Assembly: GCA_028703945.1 (NCBI GenBank)
Contig: JAQVLW010000010.1
Location: 1-63,850 of the forward strand
DNA: 63,850 bases
Source of the DNA: Aliarcobacter sp.
GTDB lineage: Bacteria; Campylobacterota; Campylobacteria; Campylobacterales; Arcobacteraceae
Reading direction: 5' to 3'
Shown here: positions 30,678 to 50,882 of the stretch, piece after piece
Position numbering within the stretch: position 1 is the first letter of the stretch
How the letters are laid out: each line of letters starts with the position of its first letter
Made by a program: the position numbers and the translations under genes
Notes under the pieces: generated by a model
Told to the model about the DNA's origin: nothing
Database searches by the model: none
Seen by the model: the letters and a program-made list of their open reading frames with translations, nothing else

Positions 30678-32852
30678 TTAATTTGAAGATAGTTCTATTC
30701 TATCTTTTGTAACTTTTAAAACTTTTACTTCAATTTCTTGACCAACTGATAGAATATCAGATACATTAGTTACTCTTTCTTTTGAAATCTTAGAAATATG
30801 TAAAAGACCTTCTCCACCTTTTGGTAATAAAATAAATGCACCAAAATCAACAACTCGTTCAACTTTTCCTAAAACTACTTCATCTATAGCATATAATTTT
30901 TCAAAATCTATATTTTTAACAAACTCTTTTCTTGCTGGTGCATTATTTGAAATTGTTTTAATATGTTCACAAGCATCTATAACATTTTGTTTATTTCCAC
31001 CGCTTACTTTTACGGTTCCACTATCTCTATCTAAATCAATTGAAACTGTGAATTTCTCAATAATCTCTTTTATAGTTGCACCTGCTTTTCCAATAATTAC
31101 CATTATTTTACTAGGATCAATTGCAAATTGCTCAACTAAAGGTAATGCACTACTTGGAACAATATTTTGTGCTGCTTCTTCCATTAAAGTTAAGATATGC
31201 TCTCTTCCTTCTTTTGCTTGAAGTAATGCTTCTTTTAAAACATTCAATTCAATACCACCAAGTTTTATATCCATTTGAAGAGCAGTAATTCCTTTTGTTG
31301 TTCCAGCAACTTTAAAGTCCATATCACCATCATGGTCTTCTAATCCCATAATATCAGTAAGAACTGAATAATTATTACCCTCTACAACCATTCCCATAGC
31401 AACACCTGCAACTAAATCAGAAATTGGAACACCTGCAGCTTTTAAGGCTAATGAACCACCACAAACAGTTGCCATTGATGAAGAACCATTTGATTCAAGT
31501 ATTTCAGAAACTAATCTCACTGTTTCATTATAATCATTATCAATTGTAGGCTCTAATGCTTTTTTACCTAAATTTCCATGACCTAATTCACGTCTTCCCA
31601 CACCAAACATTGGTTTTGCCTCACCAACTGAGAAACCTGGGAAATTATAATGAACCATAAATCTGTCCACTGAAGTTGATTTATCTGTTAAAACCTCATA
31701 CATTTGTCCATCTTTAGGACCAGCAATTGTTCCAACTACTAAAGCTTGTGTTTCACCTCTTGTAAATAAACAAGAAGAATGAGCTGATGGTAAAATATTA
31801 ATTTCAATATCAATTGGTCTTACATCTTTAAGACCTCTTCCATCGGCTCTTATTTTGTCATTTACAATCATATTTCTTACAATTTCTCTTTTTACAACAG
31901 AAACTGCTTCATAAATTGTTGAAAGTGATAATTCATTTGTAATACAATAGTCATTTTTAGAAATCATTTTTGCAACATCTTTTAATTGAGTTGCTCTTTC
32001 ACTTTTTGCTAATTTTTTAATAGCTTCTTTAATCTCATTTGAGAAAGTATCTCTTACATAATTTATAACTGATTCTTCAATTGTAAATTGAACTAATTCA
32101 ACTTCAACTTTTTCTTTACAAGAAGTTTCAAAACCTTTTTCATAAGTTAAATTTGCTTCTTTTAATGCCTCTTGAGCAAAAGCGATAGCTTCAACTAAAG
32201 TATCTTCATTCATTTCATTTGCATTATGAATTTTAGTAAATGCTTCAATATCAACTTCAACCATTTCACTTGAAGAGATAGTTTTCATCTCTATCATTAA
32301 TAATTCATCTTTTGAACCAGCTACGTACAAATCTAAAGTAGAATTAGACATTTGCTCAGGTGTTGGATTAATTACATAATTATTTTCAATTCTTCCAACT
32401 CTTACACCACAAACAGATTTTTTAATAGGAAGATTTGAAGTATATAAAGCAGCATTTGCAGCATTTAACGCTAAAGCTTGTAAATCAACATTTTTATCAG
32501 CACTTAAAACCATAACTGTAATTGTTGTAGGATAAACATAACCTTTAGGAAAAAGTGGTCTTAAACTTCTATCAATAACTCTTGAAGTTAAAGTTTCAAA
32601 ATCACTTGGTTTTCCTTCTCTTTTAATAAAACCACCTGGTAATTTCGCTGCTGCATAAGTTTTTTCTATATATTGAACAGTTAATGGAGTAAAATCTTCA
32701 CTTACAGGATTATCAAATTCACTTACTACTGTAGCTAAAACAACTGCATTTCCTATTTTTGCTAACACTGAACCATTAGCCTGTTTAGCTACTTTTCCAA
32801 ATTCAAAAACCTCTTGTTTTCCATTTAATTCAAATTCACAAACTGTTGACAT
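30678..32852 (-). CDS. pnp: Polynucleotide phosphorylase
   Basis: The 724-residue enzyme degrades RNA from the 3' end with phosphate and is part of the mRNA decay machinery. It has two RNase PH domains, the second with the FSVGEAKPMFGVGRRELGHG region. A KH domain (KIMVIIGKAGATIKEI, about 585-640) and an S1 domain (GKVERVVDFGAFI...GLLHISKIS, about 650-720) complete it. Length and order are normal. It follows the phosphoribosyltransferase gene by five bases at the end of purD-rdd-lptD-prt-pnp. Confidence 0.96.
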   Translation of the reverse strand: MSTVCEFELNGKQEVFEFGKVAKQANGSVLAKIGNAVVLATVVSEFDNPVSEDFTPLTVQYIEKTYAAAKLPGGFIKREGKPSDFETLTSRVIDRSLRPLFPKGYVYPTTITVMVLSADKNVDLQALALNAANAALYTSNLPIKKSVCGVRVGRIENNYVINPTPEQMSNSTLDLYVAGSKDELLMIEMKTISSSEMVEVDIEAFTKIHNANEMNEDTLVEAIAFAQEALKEANLTYEKGFETSCKEKVEVELVQFTIEESVINYVRDTFSNEIKEAIKKLAKSERATQLKDVAKMISKNDYCITNELSLSTIYEAVSVVKREIVRNMIVNDKIRADGRGLKDVRPIDIEINILPSAHSSCLFTRGETQALVVGTIAGPKDGQMYEVLTDKSTSVDRFMVHYNFPGFSVGEAKPMFGVGRRELGHGNLGKKALEPTIDNDYNETVRLVSEILESNGSSSMATVCGGSLALKAAGVPISDLVAGVAMGMVVEGNNYSVLTDIMGLEDHDGDMDFKVAGTTKGITALQMDIKLGGIELNVLKEALLQAKEGREHILTLMEEAAQNIVPSSALPLVEQFAIDPSKIMVIIGKAGATIKEIIEKFTVSIDLDRDSGTVKVSGGNKQNVIDACEHIKTISNNAPARKEFVKNIDFEKLYAIDEVVLGKVERVVDFGAFILLPKGGEGLLHISKISKERVTNVSDILSVGQEIEVKVLKVTKDRIELSSN

Positions 32853-40470: not shown

Positions 40471-40504
40471 AAATTTAGTTATGCAATTATGCATAACTAA
40501 ATTT
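40471..40504 (-). repeat. Perfect palindrome at the end of the EF-hand gene
   Basis: Fifteen-base arms (AAATTTAGTTATGCA at 40471-40485 and its complement at 40490-40504) surround a four-base loop. The stop codon (40487-40489) is in the loop and the last codons are in one arm. No T-run follows on the minus strand, so it is either a weak terminator or an mRNA 3'-end stabiliser. Confidence 0.7.
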
Positions 40505-41356
40505 AGAAGAGGTTGACGAAGATAAATTAGAGACATAAGTATTTAATTCATTATTATTACTTTGATTATTCATCATTTTCATTATATTTTTGAAACTACT
40601 TAAATTTAACTCTTCTGAACTATTTTGACTATTTTGTTTAATAGTATCAAGTAATAATTTTAAAGTATTTTTTGTTTCATCATTAGATGCTGTGGCAGTT
40701 GATGAAGTTTCACTATTCGTTGATATTCCAAGAGCTGCATTCTTTTCTTCTTGAGAAACAATACCATCTTTATTTGTATCTAACTCATCATATTCTTCTT
40801 CACTTGAAGAAGCAACACTACCTCCTCCTCCTGAAGGTGGTGTAGATTGTGTTGCTCCACTAGCACTTGCAACTTGTTGATAAGCACCACTTAATTCTTC
40901 AGCTGATATTGAACCATCCGTATTTGTATCTAAAGCTGAAAATTCCTCATCACTTAATAATGAAACTTCACTTGAACTAAGCAGTGAATCTCCATCTGAA
41001 TCATATTGTGACATTATTAGAGAACTAAAATCATCACCAGAAGCACTACTTTGTTTTGATGTAGGAGGTTCAGGCATTTCAAGTCCTAAATCTGAAAGTA
41101 AACTTGCAAACTCATCTTTTGATGGCATTTTTCCATCAAAAGATGATAATTTACTATCAATTGCACTTGCGATTTCATCTTGTGTAACCAAACTATCACT
41201 GTTTGTATCTAAAGTTGAAAACTGGTCTTCATTTAGTCCTAACTCGTCAATACTCAAACTTGAATCATTATTTGAATCATTTTGAGTAATTAAACTTTTT
41301 GATATATTACTTGTTGGAGACATTAGCCCAACATAACTACTTGAAGAAATTGTCAT
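40487..41356 (-). CDS. EF-hand calcium-binding protein beside the flagellar operon
   Basis: The 289-residue acidic, Ser-rich protein has at least five EF-hand loops: DSNNDSSLSIDE (about 27-38), DTNSDSLVTQDE, DSDGDSLLSSSE, DTNTDGSISAEE and DTNKDGIVSQEE. A poly-Gly/Ser linker follows the fourth. It has no signal peptide; its N-terminus (MTISSSSYVG) is Ser-rich and disordered, as in substrates of flagellar type III export. Its promoter carries the same TACC-N5-TTTAC element as flgD and flgE, so I expect it to be made with the flagellum. Export is inferred; no family function is known to me. Confidence 0.85.
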   Translation of the reverse strand: MTISSSSYVGLMSPTSNISKSLITQNDSNNDSSLSIDELGLNEDQFSTLDTNSDSLVTQDEIASAIDSKLSSFDGKMPSKDEFASLLSDLGLEMPEPPTSKQSSASGDDFSSLIMSQYDSDGDSLLSSSEVSLLSDEEFSALDTNTDGSISAEELSGAYQQVASASGATQSTPPSGGGGSVASSSEEEYDELDTNKDGIVSQEEKNAALGISTNSETSSTATASNDETKNTLKLLLDTIKQNSQNSSEELNLSSFKNIMKMMNNQSNNNELNTYVSNLSSSTSSKFSYA

Positions 41357-41398
41357 AATAACTCCTTTACTTATTTCTTAAAATTCTATTCTTCTAAA

Positions 41399-41412
41399 GT
41401 AAACAATAGGTA
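41399..41412 (-). promoter_or_regulatory. Shared flagellar promoter element, copy before the EF-hand gene
   Basis: The minus strand reads TACC-TATTG-TTTAC, 42 bases before the start codon at 41356. Two more copies with exactly the same spacing precede flgE and flgD. Sequence after it (ATAGAATTTT) resembles that after the flgD copy (TTAGAATTTT). Confidence 0.6.
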
Positions 41413-41418
41413 ACAATT

Positions 41419-42756
41419 TTAAGAACTGCTTGTATCATTAATTATTGATTTTAAAGAGGCAAAAGAATTTTCCATTTGTGTAATTAAAACTGTATATGCT
41501 GCAAATTGTGTTGACATTTGCTCATATTTTTCATCTAACTTATTTGATGCTGTTTGATATTCATCTTTTAAAGTCTCCAATCTTCCATTTAATTTATCAT
41601 CATAAGCTGTTAATAGTCCATCTATTCCATCAAGAGAATCTAAATAAGTTTTTAATCTTGTTCCTATTCCCTCTTTTTCAGCATATCCTGTAAATAACTC
41701 TTTAATGTCATCATAATTATCTGTTAAAGCTTCTGTTAATTCAGTCTCATCAACTTGCATATATCCATCACTATCAAAAAAAATTCCATATTTAAATAAA
41801 TTTTCTTCATTTTCTAGTCCATATGAGTCAAATAAAACTCCTTTTATTTCACTCATCATGGTTTTTAATGTACCTGAATCTGATATTACAGCGTTTTCAT
41901 CTTCATCACCTAAAATATATGAATTAACCAAATCAACTAAATTATTATATTTATCTGCAATACTAACTATTCCTTCTACCACTGAAGTATTATCCTTTTC
42001 AATTGTAATTGTAGATGTTCCTTTGCTAACTGCTTTAATTATTAAACCACTCTCTAAGGTTACTTTATTTGAAGATTTTTCATAATCTATTCCATCAATA
42101 GTTGCTAATAAATTTTGAGCAATTAAAACATGATTATCTGTATCTTCTAATCCTAAATCAATATCTGTTTGTGTAATTGTAAGTCCATTATCAGAACCGC
42201 TTTCTAGACTTTTTATAACCATTCTATAATTAGTATCCCCTACTTGTTCTAAAGATACTTCTAATCCAGAATTTTTATTCATTTCACTTACTAGCTCTTC
42301 ATAAGTTTTTCCATCTGTTGAGAAATCATAAGTTGTGTCATCAATTGTAATACTAATTGTCCCTAAATCCATTGTAGCTGTTATATCTGAAATAGTATTT
42401 GATTGATAAACATCTTTTTGAGCCAATTGAGTTACTTCAATACTAACCGTTCCTTCTTCCATATTGCTTGTATCTGTAGCATCAAAAGAAACAGAACTTC
42501 CCGTTGTTGTTGCACTTACTTCATCAAAAATATTTGTATCACTTGTAAATAAATCAAAATCATCCACTAAATCTAGTAACTCTAAAACCATCGTTTGAAT
42601 TTTACTTAAAGCATCTATTTCAGTTTGTGTATCTTCTTGTTCTGTTTTTATTGGATCCAATATTGATGTACTTTCTGCTGTTTTAAGTTTTGTTATTAAT
42701 TCTGAACTTAAGTCAACACTTCCTGAACTTCCAAGTCCTAATATCCCATCTGCCAT
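41419..42756 (-). CDS. fliD: Flagellar filament cap protein FliD
   Basis: The 445-residue protein has the FliD N-terminal domain (SELITKLKTAESTSILDPI; about 14-32) and the FliD C-terminal coiled-coil region (DDIKELFTGYAEKEGIGTRL to the KLDEKYEQMSTQFAAYTVLI end). As the pentameric cap it folds flagellin at the growing tip. It is the last gene of flgE-flgL-unknown-flgK-fliD, 10 bases after flgK. Confidence 0.93.
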   Translation of the reverse strand: MADGILGLGSSGSVDLSSELITKLKTAESTSILDPIKTEQEDTQTEIDALSKIQTMVLELLDLVDDFDLFTSDTNIFDEVSATTTGSSVSFDATDTSNMEEGTVSIEVTQLAQKDVYQSNTISDITATMDLGTISITIDDTTYDFSTDGKTYEELVSEMNKNSGLEVSLEQVGDTNYRMVIKSLESGSDNGLTITQTDIDLGLEDTDNHVLIAQNLLATIDGIDYEKSSNKVTLESGLIIKAVSKGTSTITIEKDNTSVVEGIVSIADKYNNLVDLVNSYILGDEDENAVISDSGTLKTMMSEIKGVLFDSYGLENEENLFKYGIFFDSDGYMQVDETELTEALTDNYDDIKELFTGYAEKEGIGTRLKTYLDSLDGIDGLLTAYDDKLNGRLETLKDEYQTASNKLDEKYEQMSTQFAAYTVLITQMENSFASLKSIINDTSSS

Positions 42757-42766
42757 TTTTTCTCCT

Positions 42767-44368
42767 TTACATAGCTAATAAAGTTTGCAACATTTCATCA
42801 ACTGCTGTTATTACTTTTGCATTTGCTTCGTATGCTGCTTGATATTGAAGAAGATTTATCATCTCTTCGTCAGGGTCTACTTTTGTTAAATTGTTATAAG
42901 TACTTTCCAGTGAATTTACTATTGTATTTTGAGATTCAAGTTTAAAATTATTATTTTCTACATTTGAAGATACAGTTACTAATAAATTTTGATAAAACTC
43001 ACTAAATGAAGTATTAGAAGTTACCCCAATAGTTAAACTTTTGTCCCATTGTATTTTTGCGAGATTTTCCAAATCTTCACTTGTAAGTGAAGTAATATTA
43101 TCTTTTTCAAAACTCAAAGTATCTACACTAGAACCTTTAAATAAGGGTGTTTGACTACTTGAATTAACTGTATCAACTAATGCTTTTGCAAATTCATCTA
43201 AACTATTTTTATATGAATATATATTCGAAGTTGAACTGGTAAGTTCTTGAGTAATTGCTTTTAATGAACCTCCACTTAGTGATAATTTATTATTATAAAC
43301 AGCCAAAGAAACATTATTTTGAGCTTCAACTGAATTGGCATTTTTTGATATTTCATTTGTGGCTACGGAAATAGAAATATCAAATTCACCCTCTTCTGCT
43401 TCTATATTTGATTTTATTACTAAATTTTTACTAGAATCTAAATAAGCTGTATAATCAGAGAATTTTGAGTTTGTATTTATCTTATTTATAATCTGATTTT
43501 TTAACTCATTTTCATCAGTTCCACTAACATTTGCACTTAAAGTTAATGTTGTTGTACCATTTAATACTATTGATATTTCATCTCCATCACTAAAATTACT
43601 ATCATCTAAATCACTTGAATTATAAATATTTTTTTGAGCTATATTATTTTCATTAATACTTACTTCATGAAGATTTGTATTATTAAAAATTACATTAACT
43701 CCTGCAATTTTTAGATTATAGGTATCACTATCCCTACTTACCTCAATATCAACATAACTAGACAACTCTTTTTCTAGGGAATCTCTTTTATCTAATAAAT
43801 CATTTGAATCGGTATTACTTTCAACTATTTGTTTATTCAAATAAACAATTTGTTCTAAAATATTATTTACAGTATCAACTTGATCTTCTAATTTTTGTGT
43901 TGTAGTATCAAGGGCATCATTTAATTCATCATTTAATGTTTGTAAACCATCAACTAAAGATTGAGATTGCGTTGCTAAATCATTTTGATAAATTAAATTA
44001 GTTGAATCTGCTCTTAAAGATTCTACAGAGTTAAAAAAAGTATTTAAAGTTGTTGATAATCCACTAGTTTCAGTTTCACTAAACATAATTTCAAGATTAC
44101 TTAAAATAGAATCTTCTTGTTCATAGTAAGAGGCTACATTAGTTTGAGAAACTAATTTATCATATAAATAAACACTTGTATTTCTAGTAACTCCATCAAA
44201 AGAGACACCGTTTCCTATATCATTTTCAAGTTCTGGTAATTCAGAAGTATTAACCGTTCTTTTTACATAACCTGCTGTATTTTCATTTGCAATATTATTT
44301 GATGTAACATCAACGGAATATTTTGAGGTACTAAGACCACTTTTTGCCGTATATAATGAGTTAATCAT
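42767..44368 (-). CDS. flgK: Flagellar hook-associated protein 1 FlgK
   Basis: The 533-residue hook-filament junction protein starts MINSLYTAKSGLSTSKYSVD, typical of rod/hook/HAP proteins, followed by VTSNNIANENTAGYVKR. It ends with the paired heptad helix DEEMINLLQYQAAYEANAKV. The variable middle (about 200-430) faces outward. It follows an unknown 122-residue gene by eight bases. Confidence 0.94.
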   Translation of the reverse strand: MINSLYTAKSGLSTSKYSVDVTSNNIANENTAGYVKRTVNTSELPELENDIGNGVSFDGVTRNTSVYLYDKLVSQTNVASYYEQEDSILSNLEIMFSETETSGLSTTLNTFFNSVESLRADSTNLIYQNDLATQSQSLVDGLQTLNDELNDALDTTTQKLEDQVDTVNNILEQIVYLNKQIVESNTDSNDLLDKRDSLEKELSSYVDIEVSRDSDTYNLKIAGVNVIFNNTNLHEVSINENNIAQKNIYNSSDLDDSNFSDGDEISIVLNGTTTLTLSANVSGTDENELKNQIINKINTNSKFSDYTAYLDSSKNLVIKSNIEAEEGEFDISISVATNEISKNANSVEAQNNVSLAVYNNKLSLSGGSLKAITQELTSSTSNIYSYKNSLDEFAKALVDTVNSSSQTPLFKGSSVDTLSFEKDNITSLTSEDLENLAKIQWDKSLTIGVTSNTSFSEFYQNLLVTVSSNVENNNFKLESQNTIVNSLESTYNNLTKVDPDEEMINLLQYQAAYEANAKVITAVDEMLQTLLAM

Positions 44369-44376
44369 AATTTACC

Positions 44377-44745
44377 CTAGTAAATTTTTTTAACATCAAC
44401 AAAATCTATATAAGATAAATTATCATCTAATATAAATCTATTTTCTATTACATCTATTCCCAAAACTTCATAACAAACTAGATATATTTTGTTATCTTTT
44501 GTTGTTTGAATTGAATTTACATTATATTGCCTAAAAAGTCTTGCGTCTTTTAATCGTCCATCTTCTACCACTCTATCAATGATATTTACTATATTTGTCA
44601 TCGTTAATAGATTCATAGATTTTTGTAATTGTAAAACCATTGATTCTAAAGCATCAAAATTTGTATTTTGATAGTTATTCATAAAATAACTATAACACTC
44701 AACTACCTGTGATTCTAAGTTTTTTATCTCTAAATTAGTTTTCAT
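44377..44745 (-). CDS. Unknown protein between flgL and flgK
   Basis: The 122-residue protein has two helices in its first half (about 1-65) and a beta-rich second half ending SYIDFVDVKKIY. It has no signal peptide. It lies 13 bases after flgL and eight before flgK, so it is translated with the hook-associated proteins. Location, size and a helical start suggest an export chaperone (FlgN/FliT-like) or a regulator, but the mixed fold does not match FlgN clearly. Confidence 0.7.
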   Translation of the reverse strand: MKTNLEIKNLESQVVECYSYFMNNYQNTNFDALESMVLQLQKSMNLLTMTNIVNIIDRVVEDGRLKDARLFRQYNVNSIQTTKDNKIYLVCYEVLGIDVIENRFILDDNLSYIDFVDVKKIY

Positions 44746-44758
44746 GTATAATCCTTTA

Positions 44759-45892
44759 TTAATTTAAGTACTTAACAAGTGATAAATTATTTATCTTGCT
44801 TATTGTTGAATATAAAGCAGTATAAGTGCTTTCTAAAGATTGAGATTCAATAGCTAGTGCCGTTAAATCAGCTGCTGAATAATTTTCTTGAAGAAGGTTG
44901 AAATTTGTAAGTTTTGATTGAACTATACTTTCATAGTTTTCAATAGAAGCTGTTCTTGTTCCTAGTTTGGCATGGGTTATATTCATTGTGTCATAGGCAT
45001 TAGTAACTTTAGATAAAGCATCAGATAAAAGAGTAGTTGCTTCATCTTCTGTTATAGTATTTCCACTTGAATCTTGTTGTTTTAAAGCATTTATAATTTT
45101 GTCTAAATCATCAAATATAGAGTGTTTTGATTGTAAAGCTGTTGAGCCAGTATTATTTACAGTATAACTTCCATCACCATTATCGGTAATAGATAAAGGA
45201 GTATTTGAGTTATCACCATTTAAATATAAACCATCATACGAACCATCATTATCGTTGTCTAATAATTTATATTGATTTCCATCTTTATCAAGGATAATTT
45301 CATTTTCATCAAAAGTTAAATTCTCACCTACTTGTGCTGTATTATTTGTATAATATAAAAGCTCTATTCCATTTACACCTTGTGTAGTATAAGAATCTGT
45401 TTCTACATTTACACTTTTGTTATCATTTGTTGCGATATAAGTTATTTTTCCAGTTGTTGCATCTTTTTGAAAAGCTTGAGTTGATGAGCTATTTCCTGAA
45501 AATAGATATTGACCACTTGTATTACTATTTGCTAAAGAATAAATAGTATTTTTTGCAGATTCTATTTCATCAGCTATTGTTGCTTTACCTTCACTACTTG
45601 TGGTTGCTGTTAGAGCTTTTTGTACTAAAGATTGTATAGATTTCATAGAATCTTTCATACTTGCAACAGCTGAGTCACTTGTTGTGTTATAAGCAGTTGA
45701 TAATTGTATTCTTTCTAAAATTGAGCTATATGAGTTAACATTGTTGTTAATAGAAAGAATTTGATTGTATTGTTGTGAATTATCACTTCCATATTGTAAA
45801 GCATCACCACTACTCATTTGATAAGTTACTTTTTCATTTCTTTGATTTAATAAACTTAAATTGTATTTAATTGTACTTATTGAACTAACCAT
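44759..45892 (-). CDS. flgL: Flagellar hook-associated protein 3 FlgL
   Basis: The protein has flagellin-like ends: MVSSISTIKYNLSLLNQRN at the start, and the closing helix ALAIESQSLESTYTALYSTISKI. FlgL joins hook and filament together with FlgK. I place the start at the ATG at 45892, because AGGAG lies six bases upstream; an in-frame TTG at 45898 abuts the ribosome site. It begins 13 bases after the flgE stop codon. Confidence 0.9.
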   Translation of the reverse strand: MVSSISTIKYNLSLLNQRNEKVTYQMSSGDALQYGSDNSQQYNQILSINNNVNSYSSILERIQLSTAYNTTSDSAVASMKDSMKSIQSLVQKALTATTSSEGKATIADEIESAKNTIYSLANSNTSGQYLFSGNSSSTQAFQKDATTGKITYIATNDNKSVNVETDSYTTQGVNGIELLYYTNNTAQVGENLTFDENEIILDKDGNQYKLLDNDNDGSYDGLYLNGDNSNTPLSITDNGDGSYTVNNTGSTALQSKHSIFDDLDKIINALKQQDSSGNTITEDEATTLLSDALSKVTNAYDTMNITHAKLGTRTASIENYESIVQSKLTNFNLLQENYSAADLTALAIESQSLESTYTALYSTISKINNLSLVKYLN

Positions 45893-45905
45893 AATCAACT
45901 CCTAA

Positions 45906-47876
45906 TTATCTTTTTAAACCTATTAAAGTTTGTAAAATTTCATCTGCTGTTGTAATTGATTTAGCATTTGCTTCAAAAGCTCTTTGAAATACCATCAAAT
46001 TAACTAAACTTTCACTTAAATCAGCAGTACTTAACTCCAAGGCTTCACTTGTTATTGAAGTTCCATTATCATTATTTATACTGTAAGTTGGATCTCCACT
46101 CTCTTTTGTTTTTGCAAGTAAATTATCTCCAATAGCTTCTAATCCAATATTATTATTAAATTGAGCGATAGCAATTTGTCCAATTGCATAATCAACCCCA
46201 TCTTGTTTTATTGTTATTATTCCGTTACTATCTACTGAAAACTCTCCCGAAGATGTATCTGTTAAGCCAAGAGAATCTAGTTTTAATTGTAGAGATGATT
46301 TTGATGAAGTTTGGTCAATAGTTGAAATAATTTGCATAAATTCTGCATTAGCTCCACTATTTCCACTTAAGTCAAGATTTTTTTCTTTTGTATATATTGT
46401 TCCACCATCATTGAATTTTAATATTCCAGAAAATTCTTCACCAGCTTTTTTTGATTCAATTACTAATTTTCCATTAATATTTTTTGCTTCAACCAAAAGT
46501 TGTAAATCTGGGTCTGAATTTATTTTTGTAATCAAATCGTTAACTGCTGCATCAGAACTTGTAGCTGTTGCAGCTGATGTAACTGTAACTCCACCAATTG
46601 TGTAAGAAATAGTATCTCCCACATTAAAAGTCAAAGCATTAGAGTTATCATCACTTAAAATATCGCTCGATTCATATACATCTTGTTGATTTCCAGCAAC
46701 TGCATTTCTTAAAGCTTCCATCGCACTTTTAACAGCAGCTTCACCTGTACCTTTTACAGATTGAGTTAAAGTTGTAGTTGTTCCTGATGTTTCAGTTGTT
46801 CCTGATACTTCATTTATATCTCCAAGAGTAAATGAAACTCCTGGTATTATTGAATCAATTTTTATAGTTCCATTTAAAACATCTACATTTGAAGTACTAG
46901 CTTCATTTGATGAATTAACTGTATAAGCATTTAAACCTGTAATATTAGATATTTGGTCTGATAAAGCTTTATATGTGGCAACTCTACTAGCTAGTGCATT
47001 ATACTCATCATCTGTTGTTACTCCTGAAGTTGTAATTCCAGCAGCATCCATTTCACCTTTAAAATCAGTTGTTGCTGTTTTACTCACATAATCTTGGGTA
47101 ATTTGATTTCCATTAATATAAACATATATTTGGTCAGTTTCAGTATCTAAAGTAGTACTTCCTGTATTTGGATAATCAATAATTGTACTTTGGGCAATTG
47201 ATGCACTTGAAATACTTTCTGGATTTAAAGCATATGCACTTAAAGCACTTGAATAGCTTGTTGTTAAAGCTTCAATATCTGAAATCTTAGTTGATTGAGT
47301 TTTTACTCCTGAACCTGTTAGTTCTGTTGAGTCACTATTTGCACTTGTTGAATAATCTGATACTTTAGAAGCATACGTTTCTATCTTATTTGAAAATTGA
47401 ATTATTTGATTTCCAGCAACTTGAGTAAAAATATCTGTAAATGAACTAAGATTAGAATTTGTAGAAGTTACATCTGCTGATGGGTCAATTGCACTTAATG
47501 CCCAACCTTGAACTTCATTTCCTGAAGCATCTTGTAAAGTTCCACTATCACCCATTCTAAAATTTCCAGCTCTTGTATAATAAGATTCTGAAGTTCCTTT
47601 TGAACTTGTATTTGATACAACAAAAAAACCATCCCCATCTAATGCAACATCATAAGAAGAACCTGTAAGATTTAAACTACCTTGTGTATATTGTTTTTCA
47701 GCACTTGTAATAGCCGCACCTTTTCCAATACTATCTTGATACATTAAATCGGCAAATGAAACCCTTGAAGCTTTATATCCAACTGTATTAACATTTGCAA
47801 TGTTATTTGATTCATTATCTAAAGCAGTTTGTTGAGCAGCTAATCCAGCTATTCCTGTCCATAATGCACTAATCAT
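45906..47876 (-). CDS. flgE: Flagellar hook protein FlgE
   Basis: The 656-residue hook protein starts MISALWTGIAGLAAQQTALD with NESNNIANVNTVGYKASRVS, then SLNLTGSSYDVALDGDGFFVV and YTRAGNFRMG. It ends in the paired helix (SLVNLMVFQRAFEANAKS). The long Ser/Thr-rich middle is the exposed hook domain. It leads the operon flgE-flgL-unknown-flgK-fliD. The leader carries a 36-base hairpin immediately before the ribosome site. Confidence 0.92.
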   Translation of the reverse strand: MISALWTGIAGLAAQQTALDNESNNIANVNTVGYKASRVSFADLMYQDSIGKGAAITSAEKQYTQGSLNLTGSSYDVALDGDGFFVVSNTSSKGTSESYYTRAGNFRMGDSGTLQDASGNEVQGWALSAIDPSADVTSTNSNLSSFTDIFTQVAGNQIIQFSNKIETYASKVSDYSTSANSDSTELTGSGVKTQSTKISDIEALTTSYSSALSAYALNPESISSASIAQSTIIDYPNTGSTTLDTETDQIYVYINGNQITQDYVSKTATTDFKGEMDAAGITTSGVTTDDEYNALASRVATYKALSDQISNITGLNAYTVNSSNEASTSNVDVLNGTIKIDSIIPGVSFTLGDINEVSGTTETSGTTTTLTQSVKGTGEAAVKSAMEALRNAVAGNQQDVYESSDILSDDNSNALTFNVGDTISYTIGGVTVTSAATATSSDAAVNDLITKINSDPDLQLLVEAKNINGKLVIESKKAGEEFSGILKFNDGGTIYTKEKNLDLSGNSGANAEFMQIISTIDQTSSKSSLQLKLDSLGLTDTSSGEFSVDSNGIITIKQDGVDYAIGQIAIAQFNNNIGLEAIGDNLLAKTKESGDPTYSINNDNGTSITSEALELSTADLSESLVNLMVFQRAFEANAKSITTADEILQTLIGLKR

Positions 47877-47887
47877 TTTAAATCCTT

Positions 47888-47923
47888 TATGATTAAATTG
47901 TGATTCTCACTGATTTAATCATA
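47888..47923 (-). promoter_or_regulatory. Long hairpin in the flgE leader
   Basis: Outer arms of 11 bases (TATGATTAAAT at 47888-47898 and its complement at 47913-47923) enclose an inner GTGA-TTC-TCAC stem. On the minus strand the hairpin ends directly against the flgE ribosome site (AAAGGA). It would be at the 5' end of the operon mRNA and could affect translation or stability. Confidence 0.6.
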
Positions 47924-47933
47924 AGGTTTTAGT

Positions 47934-47947
47934 GTAAATATGTGGTA
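47934..47947 (-). promoter_or_regulatory. Shared flagellar promoter element, copy before flgE
   Basis: The minus strand reads TACC-ACATA-TTTAC, 57 bases before the flgE start. It matches the copies before flgD and the EF-hand gene in sequence and spacing, and precedes the leader hairpin by 10 bases, where a transcript would start. Confidence 0.6.
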
Positions 47948-47972
47948 TCGCAAAAACAAACACTTTTAATGA

Positions 47973-48001
47973 TTTACTAACTGTTTGTAACAGTTAGTAA
48001 A
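47973..48001 (-). terminator. Hairpin at the end of flgD
   Basis: Eleven-base arms (TTTACTAACTG and its complement) with a seven-base loop overlap the flgD stop codon. There is no strong T-run after it on the minus strand, so termination may be partial. Confidence 0.55.
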
Positions 48002-48746
48002 TTTTTGTAATATTATTGTATGCAATTGTTTTTGCTTCACTTGAATACGCAGTTGCTGAATCTTGAGAATAAGTTAAAGCTAAATTATTTTGAGTTATTG
48101 AAGAGCTTCCATTACTAACAGAAAGTACCATTTGATAATTTCCAGTACTATTTTGTACCATAGAAGATGTAAGTCCTGAAGTTTTACTAATTTCTGCTGC
48201 TAATTCATCGTAAGTCTTATTATAAGTAGAATAATTATAAGTAGTTCCATCACTATTTGTTACTGTCATTGAGCTGTCTTCGTTTGTAGAATCAATAACA
48301 TCTGAACCACTTGATACTTCACTAAAGGAATAAACATCATAATAACCTGTTATTTCATAGGCTGATAAAGATATTGTTCCATCATTCATAGCAACTGATG
48401 ATACTTTGTATTGTTTAGTATTCCCCTCATCATCTATATCACCATTTTCAACGATATTTCCAATAATAGCAGCAGAACTTGACAGTGCTGATTGCTCAAA
48501 ACTTGATTGCAATGATTCCATTGCTTCAACTGTTGCAGTACTAGCTTCTAGAGTTGATAGTTGTAATTGAGTATCAAGCATAGTAGAAGAATCAACTGTA
48601 CTGGTAGGGTCTTGAAGTTTTAATTCTGTTAGCATTAAAGTTATAAAATCTTCACTTTTTAATTCATCATTGCTAACAGCTGTTGTATAAGTATTTCCAT
48701 ATGCATCAGTGGCTGAACTTGTGGTAACTGAACTTGTAGTTGACAT
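47994..48746 (-). CDS. flgD: Flagellar hook assembly scaffold FlgD
   Basis: The 250-residue protein has the FlgD N-terminal signature LKSEDFITLMLTELKLQDPTS (about 25-45) with LDTQLQLSTLEAS following, which caps the growing hook during assembly. The central part is Ser-rich and the C-terminal half is degenerate compared with enteric FlgD. It has its own promoter element (48792-48805) and lies upstream of the flgE operon. Confidence 0.9.
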   Translation of the reverse strand: MSTTSSVTTSSATDAYGNTYTTAVSNDELKSEDFITLMLTELKLQDPTSTVDSSTMLDTQLQLSTLEASTATVEAMESLQSSFEQSALSSSAAIIGNIVENGDIDDEGNTKQYKVSSVAMNDGTISLSAYEITGYYDVYSFSEVSSGSDVIDSTNEDSSMTVTNSDGTTYNYSTYNKTYDELAAEISKTSGLTSSMVQNSTGNYQMVLSVSNGSSSITQNNLALTYSQDSATAYSSEAKTIAYNNITKIY

Positions 48747-48791
48747 AAAATACTCCTTATAGTATAGAATGAAAAATTCTAACTATTTGGA

Positions 48792-48805
48792 GTAAATATA
48801 GGGTA
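48792..48805 (-). promoter_or_regulatory. Shared flagellar promoter element, copy before flgD
   Basis: The minus strand reads TACC-CTATA-TTTAC, 45 bases before the flgD start codon. A small stem (TAGAAT-TTTTC-ATTCTA, 48765-48781) lies in the leader between it and the ribosome site AAGGAG. Confidence 0.6.
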
Positions 48806-48830
48806 TAGATAAGTAAATAAATTGTAACTG

Positions 48831-50207
48831 TTAATTTAACTTTATTACAAAATTATGATAGTTATCAATATATTCATACTCTAATTTAAAATTATGAATT
48901 TTGATAATATTATTTGAGACATATAAACCAAGTCCCAAGCCTACGCTTGAATCTTCATATTCATGGTTAAATGGTTTGTAATATTCATTTATATCTTTTT
49001 TTAGTTTTTCTCCTTTATTTACTATTTTAATAAAATCTTCACCAATAAAAATTTCTGGATTTCCATTTGTATTGTATAAAATAGCATTATCTATTAAATT
49101 TTTTAAAGCTATTGAAAATAGTTCAAAATCCACATCTAGAAATAAATCTTTATCATAATCTATATCCACTTTATTACTATCTAACAATAAAATATCAAAA
49201 GCTTGTTCTATCAAATCTATTGCATGATAACTATCTTTATTTAAAGAAATTTTTCCTGAAGTTAACTCTTCAATTTTTGCAAACTCACTTAATAAATACT
49301 CTAATCTTTGAAAAACTCTAATTAAAATATGTTTTCTTTCACTATCTTCATACATATCACTAACTAATTTTCCTTTAGTAATAGGAGTTTTTAATTCATG
49401 CATAATATTTCGTAAAAATAAGTTTCTTGAATCTCTTAATTGTTTTAGTTGTTTTATTGCATTATCAAATTCATTTGCAACTTCTGAGATTTCATCTTTA
49501 CCATTTATTCTTGTTTTAATTGAAAGATCACCAGTTGAAAGTTTTATCATATTTTCTTTTAAAACAAAAAGAGGTTTCAGCTTCTTCCTTAAAAAATATA
49601 AAAACCAAATTAATAAAATATCAATTATAGATAAAACTAAAACCCAAAAATATTTAAATTCTGTTTCAGTTAAATCATCAATTAATACAATATTTTCAAG
49701 TCTTTGAGGAGGAGGAAAAAATTCATGCATAAAATCTTTTGGTGGAGGAGGTGGATTTAGAAAAATTGGTTTTCCTTCAAAAAAAGGAGGTCTAAAATGT
49801 AATGGTTTATCTATAAATTGTATGTATTTCTTTTCATTAGATGTATAGATTTCAATAGGACTTGCTCCTTCTTTTTTTTCTTTTTTAAAATCAATTAATT
49901 TATCCACATGAATATCAGATATTTTTAAGTTTAATGTTTGTAATAATAAACTTATTTCATCTTCACTTTTATTCATCATTTTAGAATCTAAAATCATTCT
50001 AAAAGCGTTAAAATATCTTTTTTCATCTAATATATTTTTAGTTTTATTATCAATTAAAAATTGAACTATTATTAAAATATTTATTATAAAAAATATAAAT
50101 ATAAAAAATATATTTATTTGGAAAAAAATAGAATGTTTTTTATTGATTAACCAATTTATAACCAACTCCTCGAATAGATAAAATATGTTTAGGTTTTTTA
50201 GTATCAA
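48831..50207 (-). CDS. Sensor histidine kinase with a Pro/Phe-rich periplasmic domain
   Basis: The kinase has two membrane spans (about 28-52 and 187-206) enclosing a periplasmic domain that ends in an unusual Pro/Phe/His-rich stretch (HFRPPFFEGKPIFLNPPPPP and FPPPQR, about 137-168). A HAMP segment follows, then the H-box LRNIMHELKTPITKG with H270. The ATPase domain shows LIDNAILYN and VGLGLGLYVSN; the N-box is LKNLIDNA. The start is uncertain: an ATG at 50207 gives a 68-base overlap with the regulator, while a TTG at 50165 gives 24 bases. The signal is unknown; it is most like ArsS-type kinases of Campylobacterota. Confidence 0.85.
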   Translation of the reverse strand: MILKNLNIFYLFEELVINWLINKKHSIFFQINIFFIFIFFIINILIIVQFLIDNKTKNILDEKRYFNAFRMILDSKMMNKSEDEISLLLQTLNLKISDIHVDKLIDFKKEKKEGASPIEIYTSNEKKYIQFIDKPLHFRPPFFEGKPIFLNPPPPPKDFMHEFFPPPQRLENIVLIDDLTETEFKYFWVLVLSIIDILLIWFLYFLRKKLKPLFVLKENMIKLSTGDLSIKTRINGKDEISEVANEFDNAIKQLKQLRDSRNLFLRNIMHELKTPITKGKLVSDMYEDSERKHILIRVFQRLEYLLSEFAKIEELTSGKISLNKDSYHAIDLIEQAFDILLLDSNKVDIDYDKDLFLDVDFELFSIALKNLIDNAILYNTNGNPEIFIGEDFIKIVNKGEKLKKDINEYYKPFNHEYEDSSVGLGLGLYVSNNIIKIHNFKLEYEYIDNYHNFVIKLN

Positions 50208-50826
50208 CTTCTATTTTACTTCTAACTCTACCTATTAACACATCAATACTTTTATATGAACTTTCATATTTTATAGATTCAACATTTGTGAGTAGTTCTT
50301 GTCTTGAAACTACAAAGCCATTTTTTTGTATTAAATATTGTAGAATATAATATTCTGCATTTGTTAAGTCTAATAATTCATCATATTTATATATTTCCAT
50401 TTTTGAATCATCAAATCTAAAAATATCTTTTTTATTTAATTCAATATTATTTTCAATTATTTGATGGTTACATCTTTTTAAAATAGATTTTATTCGTAAG
50501 ATTAATTCTTGAGTATCATAAGGTTTTGCCATAAAATCATCTGCTCCATAAGAAAAACAAGCAATTTTATCTCCTAAATAAGACCTTGCAGATGAAATAA
50601 TAATTGGGGTATCATGTCTATGTCTAATCATTTTACAAACTTCAATACCATCAATATTAGGTAAAGATAAATCCAAAATTATTAAATCATATCTTTTTAA
50701 GTTTAATGCAGAAATACCAAGTTCAGGGGTTTCATAGTTTGTTACCTTTATATTATACTGACTTAGGTAATTTGTTAGTATTGAAGCTAATTCATTATCA
50801 TCTTCTATCATTAATATATTTATCAA
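50140..50826 (-). CDS. OmpR-family response regulator
   Basis: The 228-residue regulator has a receiver domain (1-120, D52 in LIILDLSLPNIDG) and a winged-helix C-terminus (about 130-226, ending IRGVGYKLVNQ). The start is TTG, five bases after AAGGAG. The gene overlaps its partner kinase at the 3' end. A long inverted repeat covers the gap before it, and that repeat pairs with the ribosome site. Targets are unknown. Confidence 0.9.
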   Translation of the reverse strand: MINILMIEDDNELASILTNYLSQYNIKVTNYETPELGISALNLKRYDLIILDLSLPNIDGIEVCKMIRHRHDTPIIISSARSYLGDKIACFSYGADDFMAKPYDTQELILRIKSILKRCNHQIIENNIELNKKDIFRFDDSKMEIYKYDELLDLTNAEYYILQYLIQKNGFVVSRQELLTNVESIKYESSYKSIDVLIGRVRSKIEVDTKKPKHILSIRGVGYKLVNQ

Positions 50827-50827
50827 A

Positions 50828-50882
50828 GTTACTCCTTATTTACATTTCAAATTATATTATGTTAGTGTAAATAAAAAGTAAC
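50828..50882 (-). promoter_or_regulatory. Inverted repeat before the response regulator, hiding its ribosome site
   Basis: GTTACT-cc-TTATTTACA and its mirror TGTAAATAA-aa-AGTAAC are separated by 21 bases. As RNA the two-base mismatch becomes G-U pairs, so a 17-base stem is possible and includes the AAGGAG ribosome site. A TATAAT box at 50856-50851 lies in the loop, so transcripts from it would lack one arm and have a free ribosome site. Read-through transcripts from ftsK would have it paired. Confidence 0.55.

Follow-up and report, generated by a model that had tools for sequence, protein, structure and literature searches.

Introduction

Promoter control by PhoB follows a defined geometry, in which 11-bp repeats overlap the -35 region and sigma70 is recruited (PMC4415409, PMC3348028). 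For Arcobacter, published surveys describe the loss of RpoN, FlgRS and FliA, unknown flagellar regulators, and no DNA-binding regulator in or near the flagellar loci (PMC2147049, PMC9321776). RpoN was reported as lost in all Arcobacter (PMC9321776), and Arcobacter butzleri has seven extracytoplasmic function (ECF) pairs, no RpoN and no FliA (PMC2147049). In this study, we analyzed a stretch of 63,850 nucleotides of Aliarcobacter sp. (contig JAQVLW010000010.1), in the following called the window, in which an earlier sequence-only reading had described the motif TACC-N5-TTTAC as a promoter element shared by three flagellar transcription units. With a probability of roughly 0.83, we consider this motif to be part of a PhoB/OmpR-type operator-promoter, which replaces the sigma70 -35 element, is read by the adjacent two-component system and includes autoregulation.

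The predicted system resembles PhoB and the pho box of E. coli in its OmpR/PhoB-family regulator, an 11-bp direct repeat over the -35 region with a sigma70 -10 hexamer downstream, tandem boxes, and autoregulation. It differs in the half-site, which is (G/T)WTAC/TTTAC here and CTGTCAT in the pho box, in its targets, namely hook genes and a gene for a calcium-binding (EF-hand) protein, and in its kinase of the ArsS family. As with FlgS/FlgR and RpoN in Campylobacter and Helicobacter, a two-component system would act on hook-stage flagellar genes. However, the regulator is of the OmpR family and not an NtrC-type sigma54 activator, the promoter is sigma70-like, and control would extend to an accessory gene set only. 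With the ArsRS-type systems of Campylobacterota the locus shares an OmpR-family regulator and a kinase passing the NCBIfam cut-off for ArsS, whereas its regulator clade and recognition helix are distinct from those of approximately 50%-identical paralogues in the family, and the gene neighborhood is another one. A named candidate regulator, a precise predicted operator and a defined putative regulon beside a hook gene set can be set against surveys that found none. In the open-licence literature, we found no report of this regulator, this element or the second hook set.

Results and discussion

Structure of the element and its sites in the window

The three copies of TACC-N5-TTTAC were confirmed at 48792-48805, 47934-47947 and 41399-41412, each on the minus strand. 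From the end of the copy to the start codon there are 45 bases at flgD, 57 at flgE and 42 at the EF-hand gene. The full unit is longer than this motif. It combines TAC-N6-TTTAC, a direct repeat with an 11-bp period, with a -10 hexamer of the sigma70 type (TAtaAT) at a constant distance of 10 bp downstream, and in all three cases a -10-like hexamer begins exactly 10 bases past TTTAC (Table 1). The two halves of the element, G-W-TAC and R-TTTAC, repeat a single half-site 11 bp, i.e. one helical turn, apart. As a TACT variant, the full unit also precedes the gene that lies a short way upstream of flgD and encodes the response regulator, a site that the sequence-only reading had missed and that suggests autoregulation. 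Also, a second box is located upstream of the first one before flgD (flgD2 in Table 1), and both of its half-sites are kept in 7/7 flgD2 promoters of the same genus.

In the window, TACC-N5-TTTAC was seen four times versus a mean of 0.46 in shuffled sequences, and four copies were reached in 0 of 100 dinucleotide shuffles. The fourth exact copy, at 31098-31111 (+) and likewise missed before, lies antisense within the pnp coding region and was rejected as a chance match because a -10 hexamer at the right distance is missing.

The genome-wide scan proposed earlier for the short motif revealed no enrichment in the genome of 2.33 Mb, with 12 matches versus 45 for the reversed control. Therefore, the short motif alone is uninformative and was rejected as a genome-wide marker. 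For the full pattern TAC-N6-TTTAC-N10-TANNAT, 5 exact matches were found versus 1 in the control, and four of them are the promoters of the response regulator gene, flgD2, flgE2 and the EF-hand gene within one 10-kb cluster. The fifth (C35:17889) is probably due to chance; close downstream of it, only an oppositely oriented gene is reached, with its 3' end. Matches with one mismatch were noise (72 versus 106 in the control), with the exception of C57:1426.

Conservation across Arcobacteraceae

For the comparison within the family, 104 genomes were sampled, carrier loci were retrieved and their gene order was laid out. Orthologues of the regulator (57-96% identity) are present in 22 other genomes, resulting in 23 carriers including the own genome; in G093 the locus is interrupted by a contig end. 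A scan of genome contigs named Aliarcobacter sp. STC_124 and one metagenome-assembled genome as carriers and otherwise returned mostly unrelated response regulators.

The search pattern was derived from the four window sites and then tested out of sample, and an element was counted only when exact at all 12 fixed bases. In the 23 carriers, it was found in 55 of 75 target upstream regions: before the response regulator gene in 19/24 (including one broken and one non-orthologous homologue), before the EF-hand gene in 16/19, before flgD2 in 11/16 and before flgE2 in 9/16. In contrast, none of the 145 upstream regions of ten neighboring genes contained the full element. As the genomes are related, these counts are not independent, and the Fisher p value serves only as an indication. 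The element before flgD2 and that before flgE2 are usually complementary, i.e. where one is missing the other is usually present, as if both units shared one promoter.

The consensus of 59 collected sites is ttGwTACynwwTRTTTACtyTaAA-N4-TAtaATT. Beyond the search pattern, TTG before the first half-site and T after the -10 hexamer are conserved; the N10 spacing in all 59 sites was set by the collection pattern, which other spacings would escape.

Table 1. Genes and promoter elements of the module in the window (positions in the window; all on the minus strand).
Feature	Position	Strand	Basis or sequence
Element before response regulator gene	50851..50880	-	TAC-N6-TTTAC-N10-TATAAT
OmpR/PhoB-family response regulator, proposed reader of the element	50140..50826	-	Pfam Response_reg and Trans_reg_C
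ArsS-family sensor histidine kinase, proposed partner	48831..50207	-	NCBIfam ArsS_fam_HK
Second upstream box before flgD2	48813..48826	-	TACAATTTATTTAC; exactly 21 bp upstream of first box
Element before flgD2	48776..48805	-	TAC-N6-TTTAC-N10-TAGAAT; includes the copy described earlier
flgD2, second hook-cap protein	47994..48746	-	Pfam FlgD; 35% identical to primary FlgD
Element before flgE2 operon	47918..47947	-	TAC-N6-TTTAC-N10-TATGAT
flgE2, second hook protein	45906..47876	-	~50-59% identical to the 601-aa primary hook-type protein in two segments
flgL2-like hook-filament junction protein	44759..45898	-	TIGR02550, 105 bits, below cut-off of 127
122-aa protein with FlgD-like segment, between flgL2 and flgK2	44377..44745	-	weak blastp match to primary FlgD (E 8e-6)
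flgK2, second hook-filament junction protein	42767..44368	-	TIGR02492, 260 bits, cut-off 171
fliD2, filament cap	41419..42756	-	Pfam FliD_N and FliD_C
Element before EF-hand gene	41383..41412	-	TAC-N6-TTTAC-N10-TAGAAT
EF-hand protein, constant companion of the two-component system	40487..41356	-	Pfam EF-hand_7; alignment; synteny

Proposed mechanism and alternative explanations

The earlier proposal had left the choice between an ECF sigma factor and a dedicated activator. The latter is strongly supported, whereas the former is not, and a candidate can now be named, i.e. the response regulator at 50140-50826, which carries receiver and winged-helix domains. The neighboring kinase reaches 348 bits against the cut-off of 250 of the ArsS family (NF038389), and its true start is probably downstream of the listed TTG codon. 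In the proposed mechanism, this kinase would phosphorylate the regulator, and the two direct half-sites would bind a head-to-tail dimer of it. The half-sites would stand in for the -35 element 10 bp upstream of the sigma70 -10 hexamer; given this position, the phosphorylated regulator would recruit the housekeeping RNA polymerase and presumably activate rather than repress. Thereby, in response to a putative signal and from start sites predicted after the -10 hexamers, it would switch on its own gene, flgD2, the operon of flgE2, flgL2, the gene for the 122-amino acid protein, flgK2 and fliD2, and the EF-hand gene. The alternative hook/junction/cap set would use the single export apparatus and rod of the genome, possibly with an exchange of the hook.

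Several observations weigh against this mechanism. A repressor overlapping the -35 region would leave an identical footprint. The upstream region of the regulator gene has two mismatches in G056 and one in G068. The element is missing before flgD2 in G054, G065, G058 and G060; before flgE2 of these genomes it is exact in three and has one mismatch in G054. In G100, both flgE2 and the EF-hand gene are without it. Genome-wide, the excess in module-bearing genomes is modest (1.88 versus 1.17 matches per Mb), as would be expected for a tiny regulon.

That the same regulator acts as a repressor, whose binding over the -35 region blocks a weak sigma70 promoter until it is released by a signal, is unlikely. 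The box does overlap the -35 position, and while no good -35 element is found at 17 bp, conservation of such elements is poor throughout the phylum. However, there is no recognizable -35 element to block, and the rigid spacing of 10 bp between box and -10 hexamer (59/59 sites, pattern-selected) fits an activator contacting sigma70.

With as many as 28 scored matches in one genome, OmpR-family regulators are numerous in Arcobacteraceae, and a different DNA-binding protein might read the element, the neighboring two-component system being just a member of the regulon. We consider this very unlikely, since the element precedes the gene of the regulator and co-occurs with one regulator clade (support 100/100). 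The regulators of this clade have the near-invariant recognition helix S[ST]xKS[IV]DVLIGR, that of approximately 50%-identical paralogues being GS[LI]AVIINR, and at the loci of paralogous regulators the element was not found. In G022 (L107 8273) and G023 (L108 8644), only a relic regulator-type promoter is kept after ftsK, where the module has been deleted.

An ECF sigma promoter with TACC as -35-like and TTTAC as -10-like element is highly improbable, in spite of the fixed spacing and the seven ECF pairs of A. butzleri (PMC2147049), since what is seen is a direct repeat together with a standard sigma70 -10 hexamer. The TATAAT-type hexamer is conserved 10 bp downstream, the 11-bp repetition of half-sites and the additional copy found 21 bp upstream at flgD2 would be superfluous for a sigma factor, and start codons at a distance of 42-57 bp fit a transcription start after TATAAT. 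Also, ECF mutants of A. butzleri are normally motile (PMC3445524), though this strain may lack the module, and no ECF gene was recognized in the module, where the unnamed flanking open reading frames (ORFs) are only partly annotated.

A general flagellar promoter of Arcobacter, to which three of the four window sites might point by preceding flagellar units or the gene that follows these, has practically no probability left and is refuted by the sequence: up to one mismatch, no copy was found at the main flagellar loci on contigs C36 (fliF, fliG, flgD1 and two hook-type genes), C65 (flhA) and C43 (a flgK-type gene), most flagellated genomes of the family are without the regulator, and its gene and the EF-hand gene also occur without adjoining flagellar genes. 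Therefore, the element does not explain flagellar regulation of Arcobacter in general; that it precedes all three flagellar transcription units holds within the window, for an accessory hook set. At the flagellin loci examined, no element was found either, save for a weak repeated match in one genome.

Sigma factors

In the own genome, RpoN was not found and FliA was not found above the family cut-off, in line with the reported absence of both that the sequence-only reading had cited. For FliA this extends to 0/104 genomes of the family, with positive controls, and a sigma28 promoter was rejected on these grounds. The sequence-only reading had seen no sigma-54 consensus in the gaps; a sigma54 promoter was rejected, as RpoN is missing from the own genome and GG-N10-GC is absent from the conserved promoter sequences. 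RpoN, however, is present in 33/104 genomes of the family, which contradicts its reported loss in all Arcobacter, at least for the wider sample; thus it is not missing from the whole family. It is more common with the module (18/23 genomes) than without it (15/81), phylogeny not being corrected for.

A second hook/junction/cap set

The flagellar genes of the window are a second, accessory and patchily distributed hook/junction/cap set. The own genome has two flgD genes, and on C36 (L104 11479-14825) two adjacent hook-type genes encode proteins of 601 and 486 amino acids, so that there are three hook-type proteins with FlgE2. For the 122-amino acid protein, no Pfam family was matched. Downstream of flgD2, an inverted repeat ACTAACTGTTACAAACAGTTAGT (47975-48000) is a possible terminator between this gene and the flgE2 promoter.

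Two hook/junction/cap sets per genome with separate control are reminiscent of dual (polar/lateral) flagella. However, FlhA is single in every flagellated genome tested, with one extra fragment below the cut-off in G022, and a second complete flagellar system was rejected as there is no second export gate gene flhA. Therefore, both sets must share one export apparatus. Four complete genomes, G056, G067, G068 and G053, have no flgD besides that of the module, and the FlgK and FlgL matches in them likewise fall within it; outside of it, G053 has one further hook-like gene. The stretch between a neighboring gene and fliH in G056 (L249, 3132-3923) cleanly lacks flgD1 and both primary hook genes. 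Thus, the second set is very probably able to build the only hook, and through these four species the control of motility in the absence of flagellar sigma factors becomes directly accessible. It is conceivable, though somewhat doubtful, that two interchangeable sets work on one rod and export apparatus, that the two-component system with its EF-hand partner switches the hook, the universal joint of the flagellum, when a signal is received, and that in some species the switched set has taken the place of the original one.

In G001 (L128, L106), other ORFs break up the regulator gene, flgE2 and flgK2, and there is no FlhA, which suggests a decaying flagellar system. This genome has a second EF-hand gene with an element approximately 108 kb away.

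The EF-hand gene and the core of the regulon

A module of response regulator, kinase and EF-hand genes without hook genes is present in G003, G013, G072, G045 and G048, where the element is found before the regulator gene and the EF-hand gene. In G049, the EF-hand gene leads the regulator and kinase genes, with a one-mismatch element. As the regulator gene and the EF-hand gene are also found without flagellar neighbors, these two genes form the regulon core, and the hook genes look as if they had been recruited into this circuit or lost from it.

In the alignment, the EF-hand protein shows a conserved Ser-rich N-terminus; a signal peptide is not apparent. An assignment to the XopAW type was not supported, with 55 bits versus a cut-off of 120 for NF041410. 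Export via the flagellar apparatus would be a guess; G048, in whose genome (97% complete) no FlhA or FlgD match was found, speaks against it as the sole route.

For exact matches of the element outside the module in G003, G045, G072 and G019, no ORF of more than 60 amino acids starts within approximately 200 bp. The homologue in G022, which is without the regulator, of a 108-amino acid Ser-rich ORF in the own genome has no element upstream. This ORF (G000 C57, L110 1057-1455) is preceded by the one-mismatch element at C57:1426, it is similar to the EF-hand protein at the N-terminus, and the next gene is ApbE-like by eye; it is a possible additional member of the regulon. In G072 (L129 7343-8614), the EF-hand gene of the core-only module has rpoN as its direct neighbor, and a run of small genes follows on the same strand.

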